56,467 nucleotides of DNA from Candidatus Eisenbergiella stercoravium (GTDB taxonomy: Bacteria; Bacillota; Clostridia; Lachnospirales; Lachnospiraceae), in assembly GCA_019113175.1 (NCBI GenBank), contig DXHY01000084.1:1-56467 (forward strand), written 5' to 3'. The notes beneath the pieces were generated by a model. The model was not told the DNA's origin and ran no database searches. It worked only from the letters and a program-made list of their open reading frames with translations. Shown here piece after piece: positions 43,553 to 47,705 of the stretch. Position numbers and translations under genes: made by a program. The stretch's first letter is position 1, and every line of letters begins with the position of its first letter.

Positions 43553-43744
43553 TTATGCTTCTGCAATCGCCTTCATCAGCTCATCAATATCAATACCGTG
43601 AACCATCGCGGCCTCTTCCAGGCTCTCCGCCTGCGCGGAAGGGCAGCCGAGGCAGTGCATTCCCGCGTTCATCAGAACAGGAGCAACCTCAGGATTGGTT
43701 CTCAGGATCTCACCGATTGTCATTTCCTTCGTAATGCCAGCCAT
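43553..43744 (-). CDS. DUF1858 redox-disulfide domain protein
   Basis: A 63-residue protein of the family described as a hybrid-cluster-protein-associated redox disulfide domain. [38 protein letters not shown] has the motif CLGC. The cysteine pair may form a disulfide or bind an iron-sulfur cluster. It reads away from the pyruvate formate-lyase promoter region, with AGGAGG before the ATG. No hybrid-cluster protein gene is nearby, so its partner is unclear. Confidence 0.85.
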
Positions 43745-44180: not shown

Positions 44181-46232
44181 TTGAGGACAGAATGGAATGG
44201 ATTTACCGGCGGGGAATGGGAACGCGAGGTCAACGTTCGCGATTTCATTCAGAAGAATTATCATCCCTACGACGGGGATGAGTCCTTTCTCGCCCCGCCC
44301 ACACAGGATACACTGGATCTCTGGGATCAGGTCATGGAGCTGTCCCGGAAGGAAAGAGAAGCGGGAGGCGTCCTGGATATGGACACGAAGGTGATCTCCA
44401 CCATCACCTCCCATGCACCCGGCTATCTGAATCAGGAGAAGGAAAAAATTGTCGGTCTGCAGACGGATAAGCCGTTCAAGCGCGCGCTGCAGCCCTACGG
44501 CGGCATCCGTATGGCGCAGAAGGCCTGCGCGGACAACGGATATACGCTGGACCCCGAGGTTGAGGAATTCTTCTCCACCCACAGAAAAACACACAATGCG
44601 GGCGTATTTGACGCCTATACTCCGGAAATGCGGGCCTGCAGAAGCGCCCACATCATCACCGGCCTTCCGGATGCCTATGGCAGAGGAAGAATCATCGGAG
44701 ACTACAGACGGATCGCCCTTTATGGAATCGATTTTCTGATCGAGGACAAGCAGGCACAGAAAAATTCCACCGGAAGCGTGATGACCGACGATGTGATCCG
44801 CTTAAGAGAGGAGCTTTCCGAGCAGATCGTTGCTCTGAAGCTCATGAAGGAAATGGCTGCCTCCTACGGCTGTGACATTTCCCGCCCTGCCTCTAACGTT
44901 CAGGAAGCCATCCAGGCCACTTACTTCGGCTATCTTGCGGCGGTGAAGGAACAGAACGGAGCGGCCATGTCCCTGGGACGCACCTCCACCTTCCTGGACA
45001 TCTACGCAGAGCGCGATCTGGCGCTTGGGACCTTCACGGAGGAACAGATCCAGGAATTCGTGGACCACTTCATCATGAAGCTGAGAATCATCAAATTTGC
45101 GCGCACGCCGGAATACAACGAGCTGTTCTCCGGCGACCCGGTATGGATCACCGAATCCCTTGCGGGCGTAGGCGTGGATGGACGCCACATGGCGACGAAG
45201 ATGTCCTTCCGTTATCTGCACACCCTGACCAATCTGGGCCCCGCTCCCGAGCCGAACCTGACCGTGCTCTGGTCCACCAGACTGCCCATGGGCTTTAAGC
45301 GTTACTGCGCGAAGATGTCCATCCAGACCTCTTCCATCCAGTATGAGAATGACGATCTGATGCGTCCTGTACACGGAGACGACTACGGCATCGCCTGCTG
45401 CGTTTCTTCCATGAGAATCGGCAAGGAAATGCAGTTCTTCGGCGCACGCGCCAATCTGGCGAAGTGCCTGCTTTACTCCCTCAACGGCGGCGTGGATGAA
45501 AAGACCAGAAAGCAGGTGGGCCCGAAATACCGGAAGTATGAAGGCGATGTGCTGGAATACGATAAGGTAATCGACGCATTCTATGATATGATGGAATGGC
45601 TGGCTGGCGTTTATGTGAACACCCTGAACGTCATCCACTACATGCATGACAAATACTGCTATGAAAGGGCACAGATGGCGCTTCACGACAGAGATGTGCG
45701 CCGTTATTTCGCCACCGGAATCGCCGGACTTTCCGTTGTGGCCGATTCCCTCTCCGCCATCAAATACGCGAAGGTGGAGCCGGTCCGGGATGAGGACGGC
45801 ATCATCATTGACTTCAGGATCACGGGAGATTTCCCCAAATACGGAAACGATGACGACCGGGTGGACGATATCGCAAGGGAACTGGTTTCAAAATTCATGA
45901 CCGCGGTGAGAAGGCATCACACCTACCGGGACGGCTTCCCCACCACCTCCGTGCTGACCATCACCTCCAACGTGGTGTACGGCAAGGCCACAGGAGCGAC
46001 CCCGGACGGAAGAAAAGCCGGCGTTCCCTTTGCGCCGGGCGCTAATCCGATGCACGGAAGGGATACCCACGGAGCCGTGGCCTCCCTCTCCTCCGTGTCC
46101 AAGCTGCCCTTCATGGATTCCCAGGATGGAATTTCCAATACCTTCACCATCATTCCGGGAGCGCTGGGCAAGGAGGACGCCGTATTCGCCGGCGATATTG
46201 ACATTGACCTTTCCTTTAACGATGAGGAATAA
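44181..46232 (+). CDS. pflB: Pyruvate formate-lyase body lacking glycyl-radical domain
   Basis: A 683-residue protein that matches PFL from its first residues ([32 protein letters not shown]). The start is the TTG at 44181: AGGAGG lies five bases before it and homologues begin there. The active-site pair is C406-C407 (IACCVSSM). The family signatures [15 protein letters not shown] and [20 protein letters not shown] are intact. The protein ends after [32 protein letters not shown], just where normal PFL continues into its last 75-80 residues. Those residues, with the radical glycine, are encoded separately at 46499-46741. With CoA it would turn pyruvate into acetyl-CoA and formate. Confidence 0.93.
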
Positions 46233-46234
46233 GC

Positions 46235-46444
46235 ATGGATCAGATGAATCAGGACAAAAGAATTGACGAACTGATCAGGCTTCTGGATGAAGGGACCGTT
46301 CAGGGCGTAGGGCATGTGAACGTTGCCTGCGCTCCGGATGGAGATCCGGATATAAAAATTCAGACGGGCTGTGCGGACTGCTCTGCGGTGCCGCTCGCCT
46401 GCAGTGTCCCCACCCTTCATGAAGGGCTTGATCGGAAGGAATAG
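46235..46444 (+). CDS. Cys-rich small protein, diverged copy of glycyl-radical domain
   Basis: A 69-residue protein starting two bases after the pflB stop, with GAGGAATAAGC as ribosome site. RIDELIRLLDEGTVQGVGHVNV aligns with [22 protein letters not shown] of the downstream radical-domain gene. The later part (IKIQTGCADCSAVPLACS) falls where [10 protein letters not shown] would be: a GCADC pair and a third cysteine replace the Gly-Tyr radical loop. It therefore looks like a paralogue that has lost the radical site and gained possible metal or redox cysteines. Its function is unknown; its place between the two halves of PFL suggests a role with them. Confidence 0.7.
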   Translation: MDQMNQDKRIDELIRLLDEGTVQGVGHVNVACAPDGDPDIKIQTGCADCSAVPLACSVPTLHEGLDRKE

Positions 46445-46498
46445 AACAGGGCCGGGCAGTATCGCCCGTCCCGCGACAAACTGAAAGGAGAAACGACT

Positions 46499-46741
46499 AT
46501 GGAAGCAAACAAGGCACAGATCGATAACCTGGTATCCTTACTTGACGGCTATGCGGAAAAAGGCGGCCATCATCTGAACGTAAACGTTCTGAACCGCGAA
46601 ACGCTGCTGGACGCACAGAAGCATCCGGAAAAATATCCCCAGCTGACCATCCGCGTATCCGGTTATGCGGTGAATTTCATCAAGCTGACGCCTCAGCAGC
46701 AGGCGGATGTGATTTCCCGCACGTTCCACGAAGCACTGTAA
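46499..46741 (+). CDS. Stand-alone glycyl-radical domain of PFL (GrcA-like)
   Basis: An 80-residue protein equal to the C-terminal domain of [47 protein letters not shown] and TFHEAL. The radical glycine is G55 in RVSGY. In Escherichia coli the related GrcA/YfiD can replace the damaged end of PFL. Here the PFL body has no such domain of its own, so this gene should supply it permanently. GAAAGGAG precedes the ATG. A 20-base perfect hairpin (46746-46765) follows the stop, without a T-run on this strand. Confidence 0.9.
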
Positions 46742-46952: not shown

Positions 46953-47705
46953 ATGCAGGGACGCATTCATTCTATAGAAAGCTTTGGCACAGTGGACGGA
47001 CCTGGCGTAAGATTCGTTGTTTTTCTGCAGGGCTGCCCCATGCGCTGCGCCTACTGTCATAATCCGGACACCTGGGAAACGAACGCCGGGACCCTCATGG
47101 AGGCAGAAGAAATCATGGAACGCTTCCGCAGGAACAAAAGCTTTTATAAGGACGGCGGACTGACCGTAACGGGCGGTGAGCCGCTTTTACAGCTGGATTT
47201 TCTCCTGGAGCTGTTTGCACTTGCCAAACAGGAAAACATCCATACCTGTATCGACAGCTCCGGCATCTGCTTCAACGCCGCTGATAAGGAGTGGATGGGA
47301 CGGCTGGACCGGCTTCTTTCCATGACGGATCTGGTCATGCTGGACATCAAGCACATCGATCCGAAGCTCCATAAATGGCTCACAGGCTGCTCCAATGAAA
47401 ATATTCTCCGCTTTGCCCATTACCTGGATCACAGGAAAATCCCGGTATGGATCCGCCATGTGGTGGTTCCCACCGTCACCGATGACGAAACCTTTCTGTA
47501 CCGGCTTGGCTGGTTCATCGGCGGGCTGGGAAACCTGAAGGCGCTGGACGTTCTCCCCTATCATACCATGGGCAGGCCAAAATATGAAAAACTTGGAATT
47601 CCCTACCGTCTGGAAGGCATTCCCGCCATGGACCGCCCCACTCTCCTTTTGAAAAAGCAGGCAATTCTGAAGGGAATCAAAGACCGCAGGCGGCATGACG
47701 AATAA
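46953..47705 (+). CDS. pflA: Pyruvate formate-lyase activating enzyme
   Basis: A 250-residue radical SAM enzyme starting MQGRIHSIESFGTVDGPGVR, with AGAAAGGAGG before the ATG. The cluster motif is C28-x3-C32-x2-C35 (GCPMRCAYCHNP). TVTGGEPLLQ and the later LDIKHIDPKLHKWLTG and PVWIRHVVVPTVTDDE are standard for PFL activases. It uses SAM to generate the glycyl radical. Here its target must be the separate 80-residue domain, presumably once bound to the PFL body. The frame is open for 26 more codons upstream, which are not part of the gene. Confidence 0.95.
   Translation: MQGRIHSIESFGTVDGPGVRFVVFLQGCPMRCAYCHNPDTWETNAGTLMEAEEIMERFRRNKSFYKDGGLTVTGGEPLLQLDFLLELFALAKQENIHTCIDSSGICFNAADKEWMGRLDRLLSMTDLVMLDIKHIDPKLHKWLTGCSNENILRFAHYLDHRKIPVWIRHVVVPTVTDDETFLYRLGWFIGGLGNLKALDVLPYHTMGRPKYEKLGIPYRLEGIPAMDRPTLLLKKQAILKGIKDRRRHDE

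Follow-up and report, generated by a model that had tools for sequence, protein, structure and literature searches.

A pyruvate formate-lyase (PFL) that is naturally split, in which a catalytic body and a detachable glycyl radical domain are completed by a Cys-pair element that would aid the docking or the activation of this domain, is the interpretation we retain, with a confidence slightly better than even, for a locus of Candidatus Eisenbergiella stercoravium. The locus lies on contig DXHY01000084.1, of which a stretch of 56,467 nucleotides (hereafter the window) was analysed. PFL is a central enzyme of fermentation, and the split PFL is probably the only one of this cell. Judging from sequence data, it is very probable that its chains assemble into an active PFL; that the third element has a role in assembling or activating the radical domain is plausible, just short of an even chance. 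Extended to the split PFLs of Clostridia in general, the proposal would be that they are three-element enzymes, whose Cys-pair element acts as docking, activation or guard factor for an exchangeable radical domain and lets anaerobes swap the domains cleaved by O2; we regard this wider proposal as evenly balanced.

The PFL body (44181..46232, + strand, 683 aa) starts at a TTG preceded by AGGAGG and stops at the TAA of positions 46230-46232. It scores 1109.7 bits against TIGR01255 (formate C-acetyltransferase, equivalog; cut-off 994.2) and its cysteines C406-C407 are invariant in an alignment of 50 PFLs. Its alignment to TIGR01255 stops at model position 665 of 744 and, as regards membership of this family, the glycyl radical domain is not in the body's chain: it is encoded by a separate gene (46499..46741, + strand, 80 aa). 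The latter is preceded by AAGGAG, has an intact RVSGYAVNF and is of the GrcA3 type, for which NCBIfam already has a model (NF038360, 164.4 bits for a cut-off of 158). Aligned to the E. coli PFL (1h16), the body corresponds to residues 8-681 and the radical domain to residues 682-758, with residue 55 of the domain at the position of G734, so that the two chains part between residues 681 and 682, ahead of the radical loop. The initial annotation of this locus had thus rightly described a body of 683 residues with C406-C407 intact, ending where the radical domain should begin, and a separate radical-domain gene with its own ribosome binding site 266 bases downstream.

What this annotation did not mention is that the 266 nt between the body stop and the radical-domain ATG hold a conserved third gene (46235..46444, + strand, 69 aa), beginning two bases past the body stop. 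Its product, called here the mid protein, carries in its C-half a Cys pair (C49, C56) and ACSVPTLHEGLD. Downstream of the radical domain comes the radical SAM activase PflA (46953..47705, + strand, 250 aa; 290.4 bits against TIGR02493, cut-off 231.75). Split bodies moreover share, after ALG, a C-terminal extension KEDxxFAGDIExDL (FxGD type; 46173-46229 in the window), which 146 of the 150 split tails devoid of Cys possess, versus none of 64 full-length linkers. On either side of these genes, a small ferredoxin-like ORF (CVSCGTCEGQCPVGAIS) follows PflA from 47891 onward, with a similar protein at another locus (L017), and a 63-aa protein, which we take to be a DUF1858-like domain, is encoded at 43553-43744 on the - strand, a closely similar frame being present at locus L019.

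The assembly to which the window belongs (4.10 Mb, 89 contigs) is 95.09% complete. As the initial annotation had suspected, searches of this 95%-complete assembly with PF01228, PF02901 and TIGR01255 found no full-length PFL; apart from the split PFL, they yielded only two further glycyl radical enzymes (on contigs C47 and C21) and NrdD (on C35), so that none of these three could be retained as a full-length PFL. The C47 enzyme (G000:C47:16560-19034, L006; 845 aa) has a GCVEP motif and scores above the cut-off of the PFL2-3 / glycerol dehydratase subfamily, and under all the specific equivalog cut-offs listed. The C21 enzyme (G000:C21:31019-32503, L008; 691 aa) has an unusual ACWEF motif and passes no NCBIfam cut-off. 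The genome holds one copy of the standalone radical domain, and no second one. The small domain stands alone and is a GrcA3 protein; the role of spare part for a full-length PFL does not suit it, no full-length PFL having been found in this 95%-complete assembly.

In the genus Eisenbergiella a PFL body is present in 11 of 13 genomes (it is absent from G007 and G010) and is split in all 11. The relation between the frames of body and radical domain varies among them which, with the constancy of the split, excludes that a sequencing error or a frameshift separated the two frames, an event that would have undermined the initial annotation. In six of these genomes, in-frame neighbours suggested fused forms; these were rejected, the DNA showing stops in between. 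The small gene is present in seven of the 11 genomes; the remaining four have no intervening small gene, and the C-terminus of their body resembles the end of the small protein (e.g. CSTAQSACSVPTLHEGLDREE).

The split is far from peculiar to this genus. Among 299 Lachnospiraceae genomes, roughly one for each genus, a PFL is present in 222 and a radical domain match in 221, and a standalone radical domain, defined as an open frame below 200 aa, occurs in at least 114 (135 copies), a lower bound given that matches were listed down to E 3e-39. Defining a tail as a body tail with at least two Cys, these 114 genomes comprise 77 cases of a small gene, 36 of a body tail and one (G299, 97% complete) where neither was found. 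The small-gene profile A1 matches in 81 genomes, 79 of them among the 114; three of these 79 matches are not small genes, namely G299, where A1 hits the radical domain itself, and G104 and G255, where it hits body tails. Of the remaining 76, 75 were read as sequence and one (G054) is counted by its match alone; an unlinked small gene of G141, missed by A1, brings the total to 77. The 36 tails are those of 34 of the 35 genomes without A1 match, plus G104 and G255. Outside the 114, A1 matched a real small gene in G018 (67% complete) and a sequence in G206 that profile A2 does not support (E 0.5), so that a real mid accompanies only one of the 185 genomes without detected standalone radical domain. 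A full-length PFL coexists with the split one in at least six of the 114 (G097, G130, G143, G276, G295 and G307). Four genomes (G014, G293, G308 and G141) carry the small gene at a distance from the body; in three of them, G293, G141 and, it appears, G308, the body is followed by PflA and then by the radical domain, the small gene being elsewhere in the genome (L323, L312 and L347).

At the level of the class (391 genomes searched with A2), split PFLs were found in seven further families (f4, f14, f18, f21, f22, f53 and f56), accompanied by a small gene or a tail except in G459 (82% complete), where none was found. In G456, from another family, the small gene follows the radical domain, and G497, G500 and G559 have matches that look standalone, as judged by the match alone. 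At the level of the phylum, a search with A3, the alignment of split radical domains, matched in 116 of 388 genomes, and standalone domains appeared only in G000 (that of the window) and G191, both Lachnospiraceae, two short frames (252 aa in G882, 198 aa in G715) being left out of this count. As standalone domains were found in this search in Lachnospiraceae only, the split appears confined, within Bacillota, to the Clostridia.

The mid protein corresponds to no domain model of Pfam or NCBIfam. On 66 mids, Pfam offers no model and gives only scattered weak matches (Gly_radical in 3 of the 66), and NCBIfam offers none either, with weak GrcA3 matches in 54 of the 66 (best E 1.3e-6); PDB chains compared with the mid and with the Cys-tail profile yielded nothing beyond chance, the one match to the mid being at chance level. 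Its N-half is nevertheless homologous to the radical domain when profiles are compared: between 66 mids (A2) and 47 split radical domains (A3), hhalign pairs mid residues 6-35 with the beginning of the radical domain at a probability of 96% (E 4.4e-9). The C-half has no radical glycine loop RVSGY and bears a Cys pair instead (this half reads GCADCSAVPLACSVPTLHEGLD in the window); for want of this loop the mid is not a GrcA or GrcA3 protein. Residues G26, H27, C49, A55, C56 and P59 are invariant in A2, an invariance that for H27, C56 and P59 results in part from the preselection of the A2 rows by a pattern (G/H-x-N strand plus C-x-[VI]-P-[TN]), from which C49 and A55 are exempt. In the wider set of Lachnospiraceae genomes, counted by profile match, each of the 76 mids read has at least two Cys, and the motif C-x(4-8)-A-C-x-[VI]-P-[TN] is matched by 72; of the four exceptions, G024 and G038 end at CxxC, and G085 and G277 have altered C-terminal motifs. 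In the locus of G308 (L346) the first Cys of the mid is at a different place. The dN/dS of the mid is 0.08, 0.16, 0.17 and 0.30 in four pairs within the genus, a fifth pair being saturated. The ratio is well below 1 for body, mid and radical domain alike, and the mid evolves faster than the two others.

Linkers and body tails were also compared for their Cys. Only one of 71 full-length PFLs has a Cys in the linker (the 71 being 63 distinct sequences of 64 loci plus eight, L025-L031 and L038, with full-length loci fitting neither search pattern left out); this single case, one gene of G108 (L049/L266), is a fused PFL into which VTCGCEEVTCAV is inserted. Of the body tails of 200 split loci (167 distinct), 50 have at least two Cys and 150 none, and no tail has exactly one; the spacing of the tail Cys ranges from 0 to 6. 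A rapid maximum-likelihood tree was computed for 184 bodies from the last 440 residues before the split, with SH-aLRT support only; duplicate rows, loci below 430 residues and the 80 named loci L174-L253 are not part of it, and the label "mid" in this tree stands for a body without Cys tail. All 121 split bodies group in a single clade (128 rows, support 99). Its seven remaining rows comprise a subclade of six full-length PFLs (support 99) and L266, and these nested rows are best read, on this tree, as two re-fusions. The six of the subclade, out of the seven nested full-length PFLs, lack the Cys-pair element. Well-supported branches force at least six to seven changes between gene and tail. 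From the tree and the census taken together, the split thus marks one large clade within Clostridia, in which the element switches repeatedly between gene and tail and is retained almost always while the domain is detached. The survey of homologous loci called for by the initial annotation hence extends the split to all 11 PFL-bearing Eisenbergiella and to at least 114 of the 299 Lachnospiraceae.

Structure prediction leaves the element unplaced. The AlphaFold model of a tail-type Eisenbergiella body (L020) has a pLDDT of 81, its tail (residues 654-704) being below 50, and that of the fused L266 a pLDDT of 83, with the Cys insert (665-687) unplaced; by Foldseek both models match 2pfl, with TM 0.90 and 0.92 respectively.

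The anatomy of the locus, its conservation, the co-occurrence of its parts, their single clade and the absence of a full-length PFL from the assembly are read in the sequences themselves; the way the parts work together is a matter of interpretation. The lack of a full-length PFL, the split in the relatives and the dN/dS below 1 in the three parts make a multi-chain PFL the likeliest. In the mechanism that we favour, the body chain with its active-site cysteines would pair in trans with the 80-aa radical domain, and PflA would put the radical on this detached domain. The third element, made of a second copy of the segment preceding the radical loop and of a Cys-pair tail in the place of this loop, would promote the docking and the activation of the domain. 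The problem of assembly in trans, as described for E. coli, may apply here, and the mid copies an overlapping segment, which leads us to favour a role in assembly or activation. The first reading of the locus, an enzyme made from two chains, is upheld as to the multiplicity of chains; their number is probably higher than two, since the third element is present in 113 of the 114 split genomes. It could be that body and radical domain suffice and that the small gene has nothing to do with PFL, as its position away from the body in four genomes and the lack of a mid in G299 might suggest. We think this very improbable: a real mid was found in just one genome (G018) of the 185 without detected standalone radical domain, and in 36 genomes the PFL body itself carries a related tail. 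It is still harder to credit that the mid is a functionless, decaying remnant of the original radical domain. The homology of its N-half, the loss of the radical glycine and the short forms of G024 and G038 would agree with such a decay, but not the dN/dS of 0.08-0.30, the Cys pair of all 76 mids read, the retention of mids away from the body or the repeated change between gene and body tail.

The function of the Cys pair is more debatable. Tail-type bodies have no copy of the radical-domain strand, and the pair is the sole feature common to all forms, i.e. the 76 mids, the tails (by definition, though none has exactly one Cys) and one fused insert, so that a redox or a metal role fits as well as that of an adapter. 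As the tail forms keep the Cys pair only, the main rival is that of a thiol guard: while the enzyme is open or has no domain bound, the thiols might quench the glycyl radical, or else they might be oxidised to a disulfide by O2, the domain being then shut down safely or replaced before its cleavage. The absence of any Cys from the radical domain in the 47 rows of A3, and that of the element from the six nested full-length PFLs, are consistent with it. This guard, which we consider possible but rather unlikely, leaves unexplained both the N-half copied from the radical domain and the common xPTLxEGxD end. The pair might alternatively bind a metal, or an Fe-S cluster between protomers, the mid being then an accessory subunit comparable to those of benzylsuccinate synthase, whose beta and gamma subunits bind [4Fe-4S] clusters, beta promoting thiyl radical formation (PMC12590467). 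The resemblance, drawn from this description, is that of small partners of a glycyl radical enzyme binding Fe-S clusters; it is limited by the fact that [4Fe-4S] clusters are found there and a Cys pair here. Mids provide few cluster ligands per chain (among the 66 aligned, two Cys in 15, three in 47 and four in 4) and the tail Cys vary in spacing from 0 to 6, which renders a metal site improbable. The adapter role that we favour for the element has itself to accommodate G299 and G459, in which no such element was found, the fast evolution of the mid, which exceeds that of the other parts, and the four exceptions to its motif.

The initial annotation also supposed that the split allows radical domains cleaved by O2 to be replaced without remaking the body. 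We infer as much, with some support from the 21 of the 114 split genomes that have a second standalone radical domain. For 19 of these second copies (L324-L342) there is no PFL body in the surrounding stretch, the two others being those of G054 and of G109, the latter at a contig start (L308). Devoid of a nearby PFL body, these second domains look like true spare parts for the split enzyme. If this holds true, such anaerobes would have a built-in means to exchange their O2-cleaved radical domains. Gut bacteria of this clade, whose radical domain is detachable, offer in any case a natural and testable system for the assembly, activation and repair of glycyl radical enzymes, in which the small cysteine-bearing piece, kept by nearly all the split genomes checked, probably helps the chains to cooperate; no description of this piece was found among the matches listed in PMC.

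Neither did the matches listed in PMC, most subscription papers being outside this scope, include any publication describing a naturally split PFL or the small gene; the word GrcA3 is in no PMC paper, and the accessible parts of PMC11528403 and PMC13252398 have no bearing on split PFL. Other groups may already be working on the split, or have published it. Two PDB entries named "Formate acetyltransferase" (38LA and 38LB, 687 and 739 aa) are PFL chains absent from the radical-domain matches, hence probably split-type bodies or truncations; the part of 38LB beyond its match (about 43 residues) does not match the Cys-tail profile. These entries suggest that others already study PFLs without radical domain, and within the scope of PMC we find the third element to be the undescribed part.

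Compared with E. coli PflB (1h16/2pfl), the split enzyme has the same active-site Cys pair and the same radical loop, and both its body and its radical domain align; it differs by its two genes for one, by the FxGD-type extension of the body and by the third, Cys-pair element. NF038360 includes the radical domain of the window and does not cover the mid protein; the name of the model designates an autonomous cofactor, whereas the domain appears here, from its genomic context, to be a needed subunit. YfiD/GrcA (6owr) backs up a full-length PFL, unlike the present domain, for which none was found in the 95%-complete assembly. The closest parallel is an artificial one, the E. coli tPFL:YfiD construct, where the radical domain is also supplied in trans and where the cut, at residue 695, falls not far from the natural one (after about residue 681). 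According to Andorfer et al. 2021 (PMC8683613), O2 cleaves PFL at the radical glycine, and the E. coli PFL cut at 695 and complemented by YfiD behaves normally after activation (kcat 121 vs 130 per s), with a radical uptake 32-fold lower (0.5 uM vs 15.9 uM); the binding of YfiD escapes detection by ITC if residues 696-733, which contain a second version of a YfiD strand, are missing. The docking of a radical domain in trans is a point left open by this work, on which the third element provides a handle: the part played in E. coli by residues 696-733 may here fall to a separate, conserved element.
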